Part shown: positions 28,931 through 41,135 of the stretch, in pieces
Layout: each line of letters starts with the position of its first letter
Position numbering within the stretch: the stretch's first letter is position 1
Origin: Gemmatimonadota bacterium
Lineage (GTDB): Bacteria > JBHIER01 > G020348925
Length of the DNA stretch: 64,000 nt
Reading direction: 5' to 3'
NCBI GenBank assembly: GCA_020348925.1
Contig: CP070758.1
Location: forward strand, 3,822,859-3,886,858
The notes under the pieces: model-generated
The model's input: the letters and a program-made list of their open reading frames with translations, nothing else
What the model was told of the DNA's origin: nothing
Database searches by the model: none
Made by a program: the position numbers and the translations under genes

Positions 28931-30739
28931 ATGAAATTCGGGGACTTTTTCGCGGACCAGAATTGTATCGTTTTTGACGGTGCTCTGGGCACACAACTCT
29001 ATGCACGGGGCATTCCGAAAGGACACTGTTACGATGAGCTGAACATCTCCATGCCGGAAGTCGTGATGGGAATTCACCAAGAGTATATCGATGCGGGAGC
29101 TCAGGTTATCACCACAAACACGTTCGGTGCCAATGCCTCTATCCTGGAGGAATATTATGATCTGGGCGGAAAAGTAAAAGAGATAAACTATTTCGGAGCA
29201 CGACTGGCAAAACGTATTGCCAAGAAAAGATCCTTTGTCGCCGGCTCCATCGGTCCTGTAACGAGACCTCTTGACCGGGAGAAGAAACTGAAAGACGAGG
29301 ACATCTCGATGATACTCAAGGAACAGATTGAGGCGCTCCTCGAAGGCGGAGTGGACCTCTTGCTCCTCGAAACCTTTGCCAGTCTTGATGAGCTTCAAGC
29401 GGGTATACGCATAGCACGGGAAATAGACAAAGAGATCGTCATCATCGCTGAGGCTTCCTTTCCCAACAACGGTCTCACTCTTTTTGGAAAAAATCCGTAC
29501 GAAGCGGCCCTCAGGCTCGACGTTCAAGAGGTCGATGTCAGCGGGTCCAACTGCGGCACAGGCCCTCAGAGCGTTTACGAAGCGATCAGAAAAATGGGAT
29601 CAGTAACCGACAAGGAGCTGTGTGCCATGCCCAACGCCGGTTTGGCTCAATTCACTCAAGGAAAATTCTCCTATCCGTACAATCCGGAATACTTCGCACG
29701 GTACGGGAAAAAACTGTTGGCATCCGGAGTGAGAGTTATCGGCGGATGCTGCGGTACAACCCCCCAGCATATCAAGCTCCTCACTAAAAACCTTGAAGGA
29801 CTGACACCCGGTAGAAGGAAAACCAAAAAAATCGAGATCACCCAACAGAGACAGGTCAGAAAAAGAGAAGAAATCACTTCGCATTTGCCGTCGCTTTTTG
29901 ACAGAGGGGACGCCATCGCCCTTGAAATCGATCCACCCAGGGACACCGATTTTGAGGGTTTCATCAAAAAAATAGAGCCATATGCAGAATATATCGATGT
30001 CATACATGTCTCGGATAGTCCCATGGCAAAACCGAGAATGTCTCCCATTTCTGCAGGAAAGCTTCTGAAGGATGCTCTTGAGAAAGAGATCGTCATTCAC
30101 TACACGTGCAGGGACAGAAACATTCTTGGTATCCAATCCGATCTCATCGGCGCTTCTGCCCTCGGACTCGAAAACGTGCTGGCCCTCGGTGGAGACCCTC
30201 CTTCCATAGGCGATTATCCCTTCGCCACAGGCGTCTACGATCTCACCGCGGACGGGCTCGTCGAAATGATGTCGGCCCTGAACCAGGGCGTTGATCTTCT
30301 TGGAAACCCGGTTGGACAGCAAACCCATTTCTTCATCGGCATTGGCGCGGGAATGGGGCAAAAAGATACAAGCGAAATCGAGATCGTAAAGAGAAAGATA
30401 CAACATGGGGCACATTTTATAGTGACCCAACCGATCTTTGATCTCGAAGGAAAAAGAGATCATTTTGAGGCTTTGAAAAAGCTGAGATCTCCTATAGTGG
30501 TCAGTATCTTTCCTCTCGTCTCCTCTCAAAATGCTGAATATGTTCACTTCGAGGTGCCTGGTATCACAATTCCGCACAGATATTTGAAAAGAATGGAGGG
30601 GAAGAAAGGGAAAGAGGGGGAAAAAGAATGGATAAGTATTGCCAGAGAACTTCTAAAAGAACTGCGCGGTTTCGCCAACGGAATTCTGCTCATTCCACCT
30701 TTCAATCGATTTCACCTTGTCGAAGAAATTCTTTCGTAG
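28931..30739 (+). CDS. Bifunctional homocysteine S-methyltransferase / methylenetetrahydrofolate reductase
   Basis: 602 residues. The N-terminal homocysteine methyltransferase domain (about 1-290) carries the three zinc-binding cysteines C208, C273 and C274 (GSNCGTG, GGCCGTTP). The C-terminal MTHFR domain (about 310-600) has ALEIDPPRD, the flavin-site region ALGGDPPS and QPIFDLE. This fused form is common in Firmicutes and some deltaproteobacteria. It would reduce methylene-THF with FAD and pass a methyl group to homocysteine, making methionine. The ATG follows AGGAG. It probably forms an operon with ubiE 15 bp downstream. Confidence 0.93.
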   Translation: MKFGDFFADQNCIVFDGALGTQLYARGIPKGHCYDELNISMPEVVMGIHQEYIDAGAQVITTNTFGANASILEEYYDLGGKVKEINYFGARLAKRIAKKRSFVAGSIGPVTRPLDREKKLKDEDISMILKEQIEALLEGGVDLLLLETFASLDELQAGIRIAREIDKEIVIIAEASFPNNGLTLFGKNPYEAALRLDVQEVDVSGSNCGTGPQSVYEAIRKMGSVTDKELCAMPNAGLAQFTQGKFSYPYNPEYFARYGKKLLASGVRVIGGCCGTTPQHIKLLTKNLEGLTPGRRKTKKIEITQQRQVRKREEITSHLPSLFDRGDAIALEIDPPRDTDFEGFIKKIEPYAEYIDVIHVSDSPMAKPRMSPISAGKLLKDALEKEIVIHYTCRDRNILGIQSDLIGASALGLENVLALGGDPPSIGDYPFATGVYDLTADGLVEMMSALNQGVDLLGNPVGQQTHFFIGIGAGMGQKDTSEIEIVKRKIQHGAHFIVTQPIFDLEGKRDHFEALKKLRSPIVVSIFPLVSSQNAEYVHFEVPGITIPHRYLKRMEGKKGKEGEKEWISIARELLKELRGFANGILLIPPFNRFHLVEEILS

Positions 30740-33735: not shown

Positions 33736-33929
33736 TATCTCTCTTCCTTAAGAATGAAAGGTTCTATCATTCCTTCAGTTTGTACATAAGTTGCTTGCCA
33801 ACGATTAGCAAACCACAAAGCCTGCACAGTCCGTTGGATCCGCCGATCTTCTTCACTCGAGTTGATCCATCCATGCTGATTGTATCGTTGTGAGGAAACC
33901 ACAACGATATTATTCCAGCGGTTCGACAA
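33735..33929 (-). CDS. Small hypothetical protein, possibly coupled to the membrane protein
   Basis: 64 residues from a TTG that overlaps the end of the HAD-like gene (20-bp overlap). The stop forms TAGTG with the start of the next gene. Sequence: polar, rich in Trp, Arg and Gln, no hydrophobic helix and no known motif. Evidence for translation is the overlap arrangement only; the true start may be a GTG a few codons further in. Confidence 0.35.
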   Translation of the reverse strand: MSNRWNNIVVVSSQRYNQHGWINSSEEDRRIQRTVQALWFANRWQATYVQTEGMIEPFILKEER

Positions 33930-34713
33930 ACGCGCTTTCCGGTTGGCGTGTCACAGGAAAATCGACGGGAAACACTTCGAGTTTTACCTTCTCTCCCATG
34001 TGTGTGTTAATCACGAAGAAACGTTTGTCGATGTAATCTTTCTTGCATTCACACATAGCCCTTAAAATAAGGCTCACGTTCTGCGGATCGTCGTCGGACA
34101 TGCCAAAGCGGTGTTCTGGATCGGATCCGAATTTTTCCAGCGCCTTGTCGACGGATTTCTTGATCGCGACTCTCTTCAATGCCGGTGTGGTCTTTATCAG
34201 GCCGGGATCGTCGAGTTGTTCGCGGCGCACCTCATCGTTTCCTACGGGTAAAAGGGTGAGGTAATTCGGCTCTCGCGGGATCAGGCCTTTTTCGACGAGT
34301 ACGCGCAAACCGACCTTCAGGGTCCCGGGACTGTGGCCCCGGGCAGTAATAATCGAGACGGGCCGCTGTTTTTTGCAGGCGTAAACGAACAGATCCCAGG
34401 AGGGCGCTTGCCAGTTCCGCTCATTCGATTCAATCGCCTTTTCAATGTCCTCCACAAAGTATTGTTTCTGACCGGGTTGTAGTTCGTCTGCCGGAATATC
34501 ACCGAAGTTACGGTAACTCCCGTCGAACATGGCATAGTTCTCCCACTTGCCCGGCTGTCCCAGGAGAGGATGAATAGTGGCAAATTCACCGGTGCTGAAC
34601 GGCTCGGGTTTCTCCGTTTCCGTGTTCAGGATGAATATGGGTGTGGTCAAGAACATGATGTTGTCATCAAAATCAAAGAAATAGAAGCTAACATCGTCAA
34701 ATTGAATGGCCAT
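33910..34713 (-). CDS. HAD-superfamily hydrolase-like protein
   Basis: 267 residues from ATG 34713, with AGGAG nine bases upstream; the frame extends to a TTG at 34743 without a better signal. HAD motif I is FFDFDDN (D14 and D16, the nucleophile/acid pair). Motif II is probably the Thr of SIITARG, a basic residue for motif III is likely in the KKSVDKALEKF region, and motif IV is GMSDDDPQN. The layout, with an insertion between motif I and II, does not let me name a subfamily. Encoded 118 bp downstream of the phospholipase D-like gene; a shared role in nucleic acid or phospholipid processing is possible but unproven. Confidence 0.7.
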   Translation of the reverse strand: MAIQFDDVSFYFFDFDDNIMFLTTPIFILNTETEKPEPFSTGEFATIHPLLGQPGKWENYAMFDGSYRNFGDIPADELQPGQKQYFVEDIEKAIESNERNWQAPSWDLFVYACKKQRPVSIITARGHSPGTLKVGLRVLVEKGLIPREPNYLTLLPVGNDEVRREQLDDPGLIKTTPALKRVAIKKSVDKALEKFGSDPEHRFGMSDDDPQNVSLILRAMCECKKDYIDKRFFVINTHMGEKVKLEVFPVDFPVTRQPESAFVEPLE

Positions 34714-34831
34714 TTCTTCGTACTCCTGTTTTGTCGGGTTCAACAGTGCGAGCGCAAGCCTCTTCCCCGCACCGACTCCGTTCAGCGGAACAGCCAGGAA
34801 CAGTGAGTGTCAGAGAGAAATCTTCCGTCGC

Positions 34832-36697
34832 CTAACTGAACAACAGCCTTTCAGAGAGCTCCTGTGTCCCATCGGTGTAGTAGGGTTTCGTCCATGAATC
34901 ATCAGGGTATAAATATGCTGCCTTTTCCGCTTCCTCGTCGGACAGCTTGTTCAACTCATTTCGCGACTTGAAGTGGTTAAACAGCCGCATGAATTCCCCG
35001 AGAAATATGTCGGCGACGCGTTTGTTGCCCCGAATGATGAGCATGTTCTCGTCGTTGTTGACTGTGGAGGCCTCACTGAAGTTCGCAGAACCGGTAATCA
35101 CCACAGGATCGTCCGAGAGCGGATCTATCAGCATGTACTTGGTGTGCAGATAATTGACATGGTCGTTCAATCCCGTCAGCGTTTCGATGAATTGTTTGTG
35201 CTTATCTTTACCGCCTGCCCGTTTCTTCAAGGTATCGCCCCACGCTATCCGGTTTTGCGTGCACTTGGCCATGAGGGGGTACTTCGGCCGCATGAGGCCC
35301 GTGATACCTTCCAGCAAAAGATAGCGCAGGTATGGTCCTCCGCCGCTGACCGGCTTCTTCCTTTTCACCTTTTTGAAGATTTCATCAGCGACGGAAAAGG
35401 CTGCGGTGAAGAAGACGGAATTCTCCGCAGCATCCAGTCGGTCGGCGTACCAGTCGAGCATGGCCTTGGTCAGCCGCGGGCTGAATACCGGAGTCATGGA
35501 ATTTGGCGGCGGAGGTCCCTGGAGATCCGACTGCTGCAGGATCGTCCAGTTCCGAAGACCCTTATCGGGAGGATCGGATTTCGCCGACTTCTTCTTGGGA
35601 TCGGTGGAAAGTTTAGCCCAATACTCGAAGTACTTTTGCGCCACGGCTTCGTCCCGTACGACATGTCCCACGTTGGACTGGCCGAAGATTCCGCCGGCCG
35701 TGAAATTCGTGGAGCCGGTCCAGACCTGTATGGGCTTGCCGTTCTTCAGCAGCACAATGAACTTGTTGTGCGAGATCTGTGTGATTGTCCGTGGTATCAT
35801 CATTTCCTTGAATGCGGACAGATATTTGGCATTGGAAATCCCGATCTGGCTCACGGCCTGTTTGGCCGCCTCACAGACACTATCTCCGGACACCTCTTTG
35901 ATCACTTCTCTGCTCGTGTACGTTGCCGGTTCCTGTCCACCCTTCGTATAGTTCACAGTGGTGTCAGCATCGTAGTTCCGCTTAAGCCGATACGTACTCT
36001 GTCGTTTGGCGTGGTGCACAATTTTGACGTCAGCTCCCCTCTCCAGGGCATTGACGAAAGCCTGAATGACTGGGGGATAGGTGAACTCATACACCGCGGC
36101 GCGTATCGAATATTCAGGACCTTTGGCCTGGGCAATGAAACGCAGCATGGCTTCTTCAAGCCCTCGCGACAGCCACTTGTAAGCCTCGCGCTGTGGCACA
36201 TCTTCCGGCTTGAGGAATTCGGTAAATCTCATCTCATCCGGATCTTCCACCTGAGCCTCATCCTTGTACCATCTGCGGTACTTGCCGAACCGGCGGCTGT
36301 AGGCCTGACTGCCGGCGACGCCGCGGTTGAAGTAGACGGCGTGCGTCTTATCCTCCGGGTCTTCAGTAGTAATCGTTACGTCAACCGGTTTTCCCTTTTC
36401 AGGTGCTGCGGGACTACCGTACACAGGGACCACGCGGTAGGTATAGGTTTTCTTCGGATCCACGACATAATCACTCCACTGAAAAGCTTGAATAACCGGC
36501 ACTTTGCTTGTGATTCCTTCAAAATCGCGATCGCCACGCAACGGTTGAAACTTACCTGTTTTTCCTTTGCGCTTGGAAATGGTAAATCCCAGCAGACCCT
36601 TGGCCGCTTGCTTCTCTGCGTTCAGTCCAAGCAGTACGACCTCCGTACCGGCAATCGCATGGACTGAAATGCCTGTTTTCTTGTTGCGTTTGCGCAT
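34832..36697 (-). CDS. Phospholipase D-like protein with two HKD motifs
   Basis: 621 residues. N-terminal ~115 residues resemble a fibronectin III/beta-sandwich (TYTYRVVPVYG). Two PLD domains follow: the first HKD at H310-N-K312 with GSTNF at 328-332, the second at H518-x-K520 with D525 and GSANF at 536-540. In the first HKD the acidic residue six places after His is missing (HNKFIVLLKNG), while the second is complete. Members include nucleases, transferases and antimicrobial effectors. No signal peptide is seen, so a cytoplasmic role is likely. The ATG follows AGGAG. It sits 101 bp downstream of the glycyl radical fusion gene. Confidence 0.82.
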   Translation of the reverse strand: MRKRNKKTGISVHAIAGTEVVLLGLNAEKQAAKGLLGFTISKRKGKTGKFQPLRGDRDFEGITSKVPVIQAFQWSDYVVDPKKTYTYRVVPVYGSPAAPEKGKPVDVTITTEDPEDKTHAVYFNRGVAGSQAYSRRFGKYRRWYKDEAQVEDPDEMRFTEFLKPEDVPQREAYKWLSRGLEEAMLRFIAQAKGPEYSIRAAVYEFTYPPVIQAFVNALERGADVKIVHHAKRQSTYRLKRNYDADTTVNYTKGGQEPATYTSREVIKEVSGDSVCEAAKQAVSQIGISNAKYLSAFKEMMIPRTITQISHNKFIVLLKNGKPIQVWTGSTNFTAGGIFGQSNVGHVVRDEAVAQKYFEYWAKLSTDPKKKSAKSDPPDKGLRNWTILQQSDLQGPPPPNSMTPVFSPRLTKAMLDWYADRLDAAENSVFFTAAFSVADEIFKKVKRKKPVSGGGPYLRYLLLEGITGLMRPKYPLMAKCTQNRIAWGDTLKKRAGGKDKHKQFIETLTGLNDHVNYLHTKYMLIDPLSDDPVVITGSANFSEASTVNNDENMLIIRGNKRVADIFLGEFMRLFNHFKSRNELNKLSDEEAEKAAYLYPDDSWTKPYYTDGTQELSERLLFS

Positions 36698-36798: not shown

Positions 36799-39700
36799 TC
36801 AGCAGTCCAATTTCTTTTGGCGACCGCTCTCGTCATCGACTCCCCGGCGGACCAATCCTCGCCATGCCGTCTGCACCTCAGCGGTGACGTGCTCTGGGTC
36901 TCCGGCCGCCTCGAAGACAGGACGGCGCTTGTGCTGCTCCTGGTGATGCGGAAACATGGCGACGAAAAACTCGCTCCAGCCTCCCATGCGCATCCGCACC
37001 AGATCGTAGCGCTCCGGAAAGCGCTGCGCCTCCTCCAACGTGCTGGGGTCCGCGCAACTAATCGACATCATGTTCGGGCCGATCTTCCCCTCCGCGAACT
37101 GCCGGATCAGTTCCTTGAGTTGTTCAAGGGGAAAGTTCTCCCGGATGTTGATATCGACCGGAGAACCGCACGACAGGCCCACGCCTATGGGATCAGTATG
37201 CGCGGGATCGTCGTATGCTGTTTTACCCTCTGCCCAGGAGTGCAGGGATTTTATCGCCACTCGGCCGCGCGCGGGCACGGGGAGATCGAGCGGCGTCGAG
37301 GAGGGGCTGAAATCCGACGCCACCGTCTGGCCGTTCCGCCGCCCGTCCGCGGACGCTCCCAGGAAGGAGCCCACACCGGCGTAATCCTCGAAGGTTGCAA
37401 TGCCCGGGGTGATCACGAACTCAAAAGGGCACTCGTCCGTGCCATAGCGGCCGCGCAGGATCTCCAGCTTTTCGGAAATCGGGTTCTTCGGATTGCGGAT
37501 CAAGTCGTACGCCATGTCTACCAAATCTCTCACCACCTTACGCGCGAAGCGGTCCACCTCCTCATGTCCCTGACCGAACTTGGACAGTCCCAGGGCATAA
37601 TTGCGCAAATGTTTGAAGCGCTCGGCCTGCACGGCAATCCGACCCTCACCGATCGTGCTGCTATAGAACGGTTCTTTCATGTCATAGCCCCAGTTGCAAA
37701 TGAGGCAATTTACCAGCTCTGGCAAGGTGAATACCGCCTCGTTGCTGAAGACCATGTGCCGGATGGCCCACAGCGAGTCGATCGCGGTTGCGATACCACT
37801 CATCAACGGCGAAAGCAGTTTATAACGAGCGCCGCCGGCTGTCAAGTCCCGGCTCCGTTCCAAGCAATCGTCGATCAGCGCTGAGAGTAACGGACTCGGA
37901 CATACCTTGCTTAGATTGCCATAGCGCGAAAGCATGCCGTTGTAAAAATCGATCAGCTTGTAACGATAATGCTCGAGGAAAAGCTCGTAGAACGCTTCCC
38001 AACTATCGATTTCTTCCGCCGGTTTCGAGTGGAAAGACGCCTTGAGACCCGTGATGTGGATGGGTCCCGCTGCGGCGTACGTGCGACCTCGGTTGAGGGC
38101 CATCTCGATGGCATCTGGAACCGGCACAAAGGAGAAAGCAAACTCGTTCTTGCCGGCCATGATGGTCTCGAAACATCCATCGCAAACCATGTCGCGGGCA
38201 TCCGCGAGATCTACAACGGTTCCGGTCTCGATGATCCCCTCACCACTTCGCAACAGCCCCGCAATGATCTTGTCGTCGTTAATGAGGAAGGGGTGTCCTC
38301 CACCGGAAAGGACGCAACGAGCAGCTTCCTCCAAGACGTCGTCCGGCGTATCGGGGTGAACTCTGAGCGACAGACAAGGCGCGTTCAATGGCAGACGCCG
38401 AGCTGCACGGAGGCACATGCGGGTGACCGCGTTGCACCCGTCCTCCGGGGTCTCGGCGTCGTTTGCCTTGCAGCCCCCTACGGTGATCTGCTGCACCCAT
38501 TGGTTGAGGGCAGCACCCTGGGGGAAGTCACCACCCTCATACGTAATGGCTACGGAGCCGCGGGATAGCCTGTCGTTGAAATGCCGGTGATTCAACAGAA
38601 CCTGTTCGTCCATCTTGATCCAGAAACAGTCGATGATTTCCTGGGCCTCGTCCGGTGTGATCCTATCGGCCTCGTAGAAGGGCGCGAGAAGCTGATCCAG
38701 TCGACCAATCGACACGGACTCTCCTGCGATGTGCATGCAGCAATGCATACTGAATACGAGCTGAGCAGCTTCCACAAAGGTCGTCGGGGATTCGTTCGCG
38801 AGCTTCTCCATCCGCTGGGCAATCGACTTCAGGTTTTCCCTGTCATGCTGGGAGCCGTACCGCATACCAGAGAGTATTCCTCGCACCAGAGCTGCGTAGT
38901 TGCGCATATAGGTCTGCACTCCCTCGAGCGAATAGATGACGGACTGAAAGAACTGCTCCACCTCAGTATCCGACGCGTTGGCGCGGAGGCGCTCTGCTTC
39001 GTCGAGGAGACCTCCGATTCCCTTCTCCAGTAGTCGATGGTAGTTGGGTACGTTGTGGCCTGCCGCACCCCCCTCGCTCAGCTTCATTACGAACGCCTCG
39101 GTTCGCTCGTCCTCCTGCAGGTAATGCATCACCTCATACCCCGATCCGAGGGTGTAATCCGGCACTACGCCGACGATGATCTCTTTGGGATGGATACGGT
39201 ATGTGCCGAATCTGCGACCGGGCTCTTCACTACTCAACAGTTCCAACGTCTTCTTGACCGCGAGCCCCTTGCGCTCCGCCACGGAAACCTTCAGCAAGTG
39301 CTGGTCCTTTTCATCCAGGTAGTCCTTCAGGTGGCCGAGTTCGGGTGCCGCTCGGCGCCGGTACCAGGTATCGTGCCATCGGCTAAACGTGTATCCCAGA
39401 AGCTCGATAACCCGGTCGGTGGGATGCGGCTTGAGGTCGATGGCGCGGTTGCCCACACGATAGAGATAGTCCTTGGTGTTGTAAAACATCAATCCATTCT
39501 CGCTGCGGATATTGAAGAATTCGTTCATCAGTACGGTCAGAGTGCGATGCGGCGCAGGCAGCTCGAGCTCCAGAGCACTGGGCACGTACCAGTGGTTCCC
39601 CAAATCGGCATGCGATACATTGAGGTGGCGACACTTGATGTAATGTTTCTCGTCTCCAATCATGTTCTGCAATACCTCGACGAAGGTCATAATGCTTTTG

Positions 39701-40674
39701 GCATAAGAGATTTGATAGATACCGAGTTCTTTTCCTGGGCCGATTTTCGCCGAACGATCGGGGGGACTTTCTTCCTCAACGCGGTACTTGACTCCGTCCT
39801 CGCCATTGTGTCGAACGAGCTTCATGTAGCGATGAAAGGGCTGACTCTGCCCCACCAGGCGATAGTTGACCCCGTCCGGGTCATTGACGCGAACCAGCTT
39901 GACGTGCGCTCGCTCGTCGTCGTTAACGATTATGTTGCCGCCGTGATCGCGGCCAATCAAGTTCTCGAGCTCGCTGTCCGCCATGCCTAATAACTGTTGC
40001 CAGTCATGAATAAATCGCTGCGTGAGACAGAAGCATCCTCCTTTGTGTTGGGGGAACTCGTCCCCGACGATCGCGCGGGCCGAGAAACCCACCGGGTCTA
40101 CCGACGAAATCAAACCATGGAGCATCCGACCACCGTAGATGCGTCCGCTGTGAAGGCTATCTCCAATGGTGCAGTTTGTCTTCTCCTCATCGATGGCGTC
40201 GCCAAGTTCGGCCATAACCCTGTCTGCTATTTCTTTCGTCTTATCCTCCTGAAGTGACTTGATTTGGAAGAACAGTTCACCGCCGTCGAGGGCGTAGGGC
40301 GGCTGATGGTCTGCCAGAACCTGGTGCAACACTTCGCGCCCCTCGAACAGTGCATCGTCCAGGGGAATGGCGTTCTCTTCGCTCCACCGACGCCACTGAT
40401 CGAAGCTGACGCCGGTCACAGCGACCCACATGAAGTCGCTTTCCTCGGCGGAAGCATGGAGATCCGCCGCGAGGTGTTTCATTCTTGAAAAGCTTAGTGC
40501 TTCGGGAGATTTGAAATGTACGGTCAGGTAAGCGGAGTGCTCCGAGACGAAGGGTATTCCTACCTGGGCGTAACGCAGCGCAATATCTTCAAGATCCCCA
40601 TCCCGGAAGCGGCGGGAAAGAGCGACGGCCTTTCTCGACCCTGACAATTTGAAAGCCTGATCTGGTGTAAGCAT
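36799..40674 (-). CDS. DyP-type peroxidase-like / glycyl radical enzyme fusion
   Basis: 1291 residues from ATG 40674, chosen because AAGGAGGT lies eight bases upstream; the frame is open 27 codons further. Residues ~1-370 follow the dye-decolorizing peroxidase fold: FFQIKSLQ, a GRMLHGLISS segment where GxxDG is expected (catalytic Asp replaced by Ser), the family's GR after an LSxxExxxIIGR-like stretch (ENLIGRD), H257 at the position of the proximal heme His (AHVKLV), and the closing IYQISYAKS...VPSALELE strand. Residues ~430-1290 are a complete pyruvate formate-lyase-type glycyl radical enzyme: EIIVG near 500, thiyl Cys834 and Glu836 (DGCFE), and the glycyl loop RMRMGGWSEFF with Gly1232. No GRE-activating radical SAM enzyme is visible nearby. 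A local repeat (KLVR.N..DGV.YR) lies in the DyP part. The substrate cannot be predicted. Confidence 0.8.
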   Translation of the reverse strand: MLTPDQAFKLSGSRKAVALSRRFRDGDLEDIALRYAQVGIPFVSEHSAYLTVHFKSPEALSFSRMKHLAADLHASAEESDFMWVAVTGVSFDQWRRWSEENAIPLDDALFEGREVLHQVLADHQPPYALDGGELFFQIKSLQEDKTKEIADRVMAELGDAIDEEKTNCTIGDSLHSGRIYGGRMLHGLISSVDPVGFSARAIVGDEFPQHKGGCFCLTQRFIHDWQQLLGMADSELENLIGRDHGGNIIVNDDERAHVKLVRVNDPDGVNYRLVGQSQPFHRYMKLVRHNGEDGVKYRVEEESPPDRSAKIGPGKELGIYQISYAKSIMTFVEVLQNMIGDEKHYIKCRHLNVSHADLGNHWYVPSALELELPAPHRTLTVLMNEFFNIRSENGLMFYNTKDYLYRVGNRAIDLKPHPTDRVIELLGYTFSRWHDTWYRRRAAPELGHLKDYLDEKDQHLLKVSVAERKGLAVKKTLELLSSEEPGRRFGTYRIHPKEIIVGVVPDYTLGSGYEVMHYLQEDERTEAFVMKLSEGGAAGHNVPNYHRLLEKGIGGLLDEAERLRANASDTEVEQFFQSVIYSLEGVQTYMRNYAALVRGILSGMRYGSQHDRENLKSIAQRMEKLANESPTTFVEAAQLVFSMHCCMHIAGESVSIGRLDQLLAPFYEADRITPDEAQEIIDCFWIKMDEQVLLNHRHFNDRLSRGSVAITYEGGDFPQGAALNQWVQQITVGGCKANDAETPEDGCNAVTRMCLRAARRLPLNAPCLSLRVHPDTPDDVLEEAARCVLSGGGHPFLINDDKIIAGLLRSGEGIIETGTVVDLADARDMVCDGCFETIMAGKNEFAFSFVPVPDAIEMALNRGRTYAAAGPIHITGLKASFHSKPAEEIDSWEAFYELFLEHYRYKLIDFYNGMLSRYGNLSKVCPSPLLSALIDDCLERSRDLTAGGARYKLLSPLMSGIATAIDSLWAIRHMVFSNEAVFTLPELVNCLICNWGYDMKEPFYSSTIGEGRIAVQAERFKHLRNYALGLSKFGQGHEEVDRFARKVVRDLVDMAYDLIRNPKNPISEKLEILRGRYGTDECPFEFVITPGIATFEDYAGVGSFLGASADGRRNGQTVASDFSPSSTPLDLPVPARGRVAIKSLHSWAEGKTAYDDPAHTDPIGVGLSCGSPVDINIRENFPLEQLKELIRQFAEGKIGPNMMSISCADPSTLEEAQRFPERYDLVRMRMGGWSEFFVAMFPHHQEQHKRRPVFEAAGDPEHVTAEVQTAWRGLVRRGVDDESGRQKKLDC

Positions 40675-40784
40675 CGAAAGATACCTCCTTGCATATTCGT
40701 TCAAAATGGGGGGCGATTTTGAGTTTCCACAAACGCTTGCAGAAGAACCTGTCATTCTCGACAGGTTTCGAAACTATCAGTAAC

Positions 40785-41135
40785 CTAAGCAGCCGCATTT
40801 GAGTCTGGTATCATAAGAAAGAATTGTGCACCGTGCTGGAGAGGCCCTCCTAAAACGACGTGTTCCGCGGAGCTGTGTGGGCGAAGGAGATAATAATAAC
40901 CGGATCCGTCGTGACACAGAGTCCGCATGTCGTCAGCGGACAGCCGGTGCAAGTAATTGATTGGGAAATCAGGATTGAGAGTATGACAAATCGAGTTCTG
41001 AGCACGAGGCTCCCTTTCCCGTTCAAAGACGAACCTCTCTGACTCATACACTCTGCGGCGTAATCCAAACCACGCTGTGAACGGCTGGAAATCAAGTGCT
41101 TCGAATGGTCCCTGAGAGTTTTTTTCTACGTTCAT
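40785..41135 (-). CDS. Hypothetical protein, doubtful
   Basis: 116 residues, ATG start without a clear Shine-Dalgarno. The sequence is globular in look (aromatic and charged mix, no membrane helix) but matches no family I can recall. It precedes the glycyl radical fusion gene by 110 bp on the same strand, which is the only support for it. Confidence 0.3.
   Translation of the reverse strand: MNVEKNSQGPFEALDFQPFTAWFGLRRRVYESERFVFEREREPRAQNSICHTLNPDFPINYLHRLSADDMRTLCHDGSGYYYLLRPHSSAEHVVLGGPLQHGAQFFLMIPDSNAAA

Follow-up and report, generated by a model that had tools for sequence, protein, structure and literature searches.

Glycyl radical enzymes (GREs) are textbook anaerobic catalysts, destroyed by air and dependent on an activase of the radical S-adenosylmethionine (radical-SAM) type, and to our knowledge every known GRE uses such an activase. 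Class I ribonucleotide reductase, which is a functional analogy only, runs an aerobic thiyl radical in a related barrel with a separate metal module, its cofactor being diiron and not heme. In this report, we focus on a gene joining a dye-decolorizing peroxidase (DyP)-like heme module to a GRE, located at 36799..40674 on the minus strand of a 64,000-nucleotide stretch of DNA (hereafter the window; contig CP070758.1 of the Gemmatimonadota assembly GCA_020348925.1, positions 3,822,859 to 3,886,858). The closest described system is the fusion of DyP and pyruvate formate-lyase (PFL) in the fungus Chaetomium cochliodes, reported by Zamocky et al. in 2016 with its role left open, which likewise carries an N-terminal type-B DyP and a C-terminal PFL/GRE in one chain (the fungal sequence being matched by description), and which is said there to exist in distant prokaryotes, a 2014 review being cited for other organisms (PMC5041501). 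That account claims that the fungus has a putative PFL activase, and is silent on pairing with a standalone type-A DyP, on activase-free bacteria, on a PLD/HAD cassette and on a branch without the catalytic Asp and Arg. The bare architecture is therefore already known and not new. The preliminary description of this locus had put it forward as an undescribed system, which for the fusion itself the 2016 report forestalls; the activase-free, aerobic, always-paired pattern is absent from that report. What appears new is the obligate pairing, the activase-free hosts, the dual DyP origins and the conserved cassette, for which we found no prior report in a search whose scope excluded most subscription papers.

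With the PFL2, glycerol dehydratase and CutC enzymes, the GRE half shares the barrel fold, the Cys-x-Glu motif, the glycyl loop and the GH motif (His540). It differs from them in forming a separate clade (support 100/100), in being always paired with DyP, in having no linked activase, and in its glycyl loop, which reads RMGGWSE where that class has RVxGYS; the region aligned with what we take to be Asp447 and Tyr339 of glycerol dehydratase also differs. We tentatively favour a reading of DyP-GRE as one radical enzyme, in which a PFL-type barrel would work with an obligatory DyP-type heme partner that installs or controls its radical.

DyP pairing and activases across the family

Relatives were sought in plasmids first, and then by GRE peptides only across 84,980 genomes, which together gave 38 homologous loci in at least eight phyla. 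The plasmid search returned a fused protein in Asticcacaulis (35% identity) and, in Hymenobacter, a GRE whose DyP is a separate protein, while the genome scan added 36 members (L011-L046) from Acidobacteriota, Thermodesulfobacteriota, Planctomycetota, Pseudomonadota, Myxococcota, Cyanobacteriota, Actinomycetota, Bacteroidota and Verrucomicrobiota. A DyP is present at 37 of the 38 loci, the sole exception (L043) lying on a contig cut off within the GRE, against none of 16 canonical GRE loci, and the pairing is seen in loci found with GRE peptides alone. The partner is either fused (type B) or a separate next gene (type A, EfeB-like, as typed on L035, where Asp, His and Arg are retained); in Bacteroidota, Ensifer, Sphingomonas and Haloferula the separate gene follows the GRE, in the opposite order to the fusion. 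Since two DyP subfamilies are thus joined to one GRE clade, set apart from the sampled canonical GREs, the sequences provide strong evidence of a functional bond between DyP and GRE. The standalone type-A DyPs of L035 (12363-14438) and L036 (12581-14563) bear a C-terminal HAD-like domain, by which the DyP, HAD, GRE and PLD modules appear to recombine. In the Hymenobacter plasmid copy (L006:9935-14206), GRE, DyP and HAD all show apparent frameshifts, possibly assembly errors; in the relative L039 all three are uninterrupted.

The window copy groups with L011-L013 across phyla (support 100/100), which implies horizontal transfer of DyP-GRE. The gene has a G+C content of 57%, compared with 50% for the remainder of the window.

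The distribution of activases sets this family apart from canonical GREs. Among the 37 family genomes, four score over the cut-off of the activase model TIGR02494, two of them over that of TIGR02493 as well, and each of the four has its activase close to a canonical GRE distinct from DyP-GRE. A PFL-type activase is absent from all 33 genomes with DyP-GRE as their sole GRE, against its presence in 13 of 14 genomes with a canonical GRE in a control set of 58 unrelated genomes (Fisher p = 1e-10, to be read as indicative, the genomes not being independent); activases were found in 0/44 control genomes without a GRE, and Escherichia coli, Bacteroides and Lactococcus controls agree with the association of activase and canonical GRE. 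No radical-SAM gene recurs beside DyP-GRE at the 38 loci. As had been noted from the window, no activase gene lies in it beside DyP-GRE, and the search of the host genome revealed two, near two further canonical GREs (G000:C1:1344337-1350673 and G000:C1:4741998-4744843). The earlier conclusion that activation must come from elsewhere is not safe in view of the 33 relatives' genomes without a recognisable PFL-type activase.

Heme-copper oxidase genes are found in 35 of the 37 hosts, the window's host and a Desulfobacca metagenome-assembled genome (MAG) being the only ones without. The window's host, with its two canonical GREs and no heme-copper oxidase, is anaerobe-like and has no close relatives among the compared genomes. 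Chromobacterium alticapitis (L032; G080:C157:16587-27239) carries a canonical PFL with its activase some 6 kb away from DyP-GRE. A widely transferred clade in oxygen-respiring bacteria, with a constant heme partner and no PFL-type activase, challenges the rule that ties GREs to anaerobes and activases, and opens aerobic activation of GRE chemistry to direct test. If activation by heme were true, it would be a new route to protein radicals by which hard anaerobic chemistry could be run in air, and DyP-GRE would be to the anaerobic GREs what class I is to class III ribonucleotide reductases, a counterpart for the oxygen era.

The fused frame and its two modules

The longest open reading frame on the minus strand (36799-40755, 1318 aa) is free of internal stops. 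Its start at 40755 was dropped in favour of the ATG at 40674, since a strong ribosome-binding site (Shine-Dalgarno AAGGAGG, about 9 nt upstream) and the start position shared by the closest homologues agree on the latter; thus, the protein is 1291 aa long and the residue numbers used earlier are correct. Pfam recognizes Dyp_perox_C (E 4e-9) and PFL-like (PF02901, E 2e-107), while the NCBIfam models TIGR01413 Dyp_perox_fam (E 1.5e-15) and TIGR01774 PFL2-3 (E 7e-67) each fall under their own cut-off. A continuous frame of DyP fold and GRE, as first described, is borne out by these matches together with profile and Foldseek results, and the same fused frame recurs in about 28 independent genomes. 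Between the window copy and L012, dN is about 0.19 and dS at least 1.3 in both halves, a coarse sign of purifying selection, as dS is near saturation. A sequencing error or artificial fusion is ruled out by this recurrence and by the conservation of both halves. A phage or defence origin was likewise rejected, as none of the viral contigs searched carries a DyP-GRE gene and PADLOC, run as a check for defence systems, gave just weak, generic PLD matches.

The N-terminal type-B DyP-like heme module (about residues 1-391; 39502..40674) was identified by profile, AlphaFold model and Foldseek. The profile of this half spans complete type-B DyPs in the PDB (DypB, E 5e-34), its model (pLDDT 83, pTM 0.87) is matched to DtpB/DypB with TMt of about 0.8, and the module thus has in common with these enzymes the whole fold and the proximal His. 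The structure models overall reached pLDDT 82-83 and pTM 0.87, with low-confidence stretches that include both the glycyl loop and the distal loop of the DyP. As the preliminary description stated, the proximal heme ligand is kept (His257, or His284 in the 1318-aa frame; 39904..39906), being invariant in 28/28 fused members, and the catalytic Asp of GxxDG is lost, with His186 in its place (40117..40119). That description overlooked a further loss, namely that of the distal Arg, here Gly275 (39850..39852). Across the 28 fused members, the catalytic position holds Asp in 10, Glu in 13 and His in five, the last being the window clade. The Arg is present in 23 and gives way to Gly or Ser solely in the window clade, so that all five exceptions to Asp/Glu (the window copy and L011-L014) lost the distal Arg too. 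For the peroxidase activity of DypB the distal Arg counts more than the Asp, a point for which our literature search yielded no confirming paper. With both residues replaced, the window copy would probably be a heme module without peroxidase function; it is DyP-like by its predicted fold, and for want of the GxxDG Asp and the distal Arg it is not classed as a DyP peroxidase. In contrast to DypB and DtpB, it is also fused to a GRE. Anaerobic life was ruled out as a simple rule for the loss of Asp and Arg, as the hosts of L012 and L013, which belong to this branch, encode COX1-type oxidases.

The C-terminal GRE module (about residues 419-1291; 36799..39420) matches PFL-like at the E value given above, and by profile it matches CutC and the diol and glycerol dehydratases (E 1e-84 to 5e-89); the Aliikangiella relative L017 aligns with GREs in Foldseek at TMt of about 0.74. 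The three catalytic residues named in the preliminary description are all intact. The thiyl-radical Cys834 stands with Cys831 in CDGC-F-E (38173..38175) and is found in all members except the degenerate L030; Glu836, two residues further on (38167..38169), is found in all members extending to it. The glycyl-radical Gly1232 in RMGGWSE (36979..36981) and the next residue, Trp1233, are invariant in 35/35 members extending to them. These residues and the loop Arg are invariant across the family apart from L030. The glycyl-loop model PF01228 stays under its cut-off (E 0.018); Gly1232 is nevertheless aligned and invariant. All GRE equivalog models are far under cut-off (CutC, 148 bits against 1050), and hence no substrate was assigned by equivalog and known specificities such as choline lyase or diol dehydratase were dropped. 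In the Albibeggiatoa copy (L030:9959-13423), both active-site Cys residues are replaced by Tyr and the glycyl loop is absent, indicating a degenerate or inactivated member.

Possible routes to the radical

If DyP-GRE is one radical enzyme, its heme module would install, repair or gate the protein radical in place of an activase, for example by a route from ferryl heme over a Trp/Tyr hole to Cys/Gly, a role that may be likened to that of the O2-dependent metal subunit which class I ribonucleotide reductase uses for its related thiyl barrel. That the radical in the GRE barrel is generated in aerobic bacteria by the DyP heme module, in place of a radical-SAM activase, is a narrower proposal, and a somewhat unlikely one. 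In the window branch, the heme module would more likely be a gating, sensor or electron-relay element than a peroxidase, because the peroxidase residues are lost and host activases lie near its other GREs; there, the radical may be supplied by a host activase. Among the roles suggested earlier, peroxide removal is unlikely for the window copy, as both distal catalytic residues are gone, while oxygen or peroxide sensing, oxygen removal and electron donation may still apply.

Several points weigh against activation by heme. The hosts of L012, L013 and L014 show no activase despite the loss of both distal residues, so that heme peroxidase chemistry cannot be the general activation route in the window clade. 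A putative PFL activase is reported in the fungal host (PMC5041501). NrdG scores over its cut-off in one family genome and gives a weak match in seven more, six of which are DyP-GRE-only; one DyP-GRE-only genome encodes a protein that looks like NrdG2 (L073), and several hosts are incomplete MAGs. The DyP-GRE-only genomes may thus hold an unusual activase. As possible alternative activases, NrdG-like 4Fe-4S proteins of about 210-235 aa, all under cut-off, were observed in cyanobacterial, myxobacterial and Sideroxydans hosts (L080 in G070, L081 in G072, L082 in G077 and L083 in G071).

The NrdG-like proteins under cut-off in six DyP-GRE-only genomes, together with the established dependence of all known GREs on radical-SAM activases, speak for conventional activation by a divergent or unlinked radical-SAM protein missed by the models, the DyP then giving protection from peroxide or acting as an oxygen/peroxide sensor that switches the GRE, which we regard as possible though doubtful. 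A sensor would be expected to look like the window clade, which keeps the proximal His without the peroxidase residues, and H2O2 and peroxyacetic acid both induce the fungal homologue (PMC5041501), in keeping with sensing or protection. However, the lack of a recurrent radical-SAM gene beside the loci tells against it, 27 of the 33 DyP-GRE-only genomes have not even a weak NrdG-like match at 1e-12, and O2, which chiefly endangers a glycyl radical, is not removed by DyP. A two-step enzyme, in which DyP and GRE act in turn on one small molecule and their coupling channels a reactive intermediate, the heme being no radical maker, is improbable: pairing kept as a fusion or as neighbour genes in opposite order is typical of pathway partners, and phosphodiesterase, phosphatase and glyoxalase-like genes stand alongside, but two distinct DyP subfamilies are used, and the DyP of the window clade is conserved though its peroxidase residues are gone. 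Least expected is a barrel that is no longer glycyl-radical-based and serves aerobes as a scaffold or hydrolytic enzyme; while aerobic hosts without activase, the L030 copy without Cys and loop, and the unusual loop motif with its poor PF01228 score would suit such a barrel, the invariance of Cys, Glu, Gly and loop Arg in every intact member across phyla makes it very unlikely.

Neighbouring genes

The Cupin_5-like, DyP-GRE, PLD and HAD genes of the window are co-directional, running from 41135 to 33910 on the minus strand. The PLD-superfamily phosphodiesterase gene (34832..36697; PLDc_2, E 1e-21) begins 101 bp past the DyP-GRE gene, and homologues adjoin the GRE in seven other loci, making eight with the window. 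The HAD-superfamily-like phosphatase gene (33910..34743) was recognized by eye from the motifs DFDDN...SIITARG...SDDDPQN; it has no Pfam match, and searches against plasmids and the PDB gave none. Homologues of this type lie beside the GRE in L011, L013, L040, L041 and, in part, L043. About 17 loci have a HAD-type phosphatase as a neighbour or fusion partner, the kinds including the window type, the L035 type fused to DyP, the Hymenobacter type and DUF2608, which we presume to belong to the HAD superfamily. Directly upstream of DyP-GRE, a Cupin_5-like (DUF985) gene (40785..41135; Pfam E 4e-5, just under cut-off), whose cassette membership is uncertain, has homologues near L014, L018 and L023. 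PF04185 phosphoesterase genes flank DyP-GRE at five loci, VOC/glyoxalase genes at six, and DUF2278 with an FGE-sulfatase gene at two.

These neighbours suggest a recurring logic of phosphodiesterase, phosphatase and radical enzyme. The substrate would then be a small alcohol or amino-alcohol freed by the adjacent phosphodiesterase, of the PLD type or, in relatives, of PF04185, together with the HAD phosphatase.

Homologues of the PLD gene at 34832-36697 occur commonly, without DyP-GRE, on rhizobial and burkholderial plasmids (L007-L010), in some cases with DUF2278 and phosphatase or metallophosphoesterase genes alongside. Genes fusing trypsin to a non-specific endonuclease adjoin DyP-GRE in two phyla (L013:17840-22978 and L024:14010-16007), and conflict-type genes, CHAT-like by eye, occur near L036. 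Elsewhere in the window, 28931-30739 encodes a homocysteine S-methyltransferase fused to a methylenetetrahydrofolate reductase, an ordinary known fusion.

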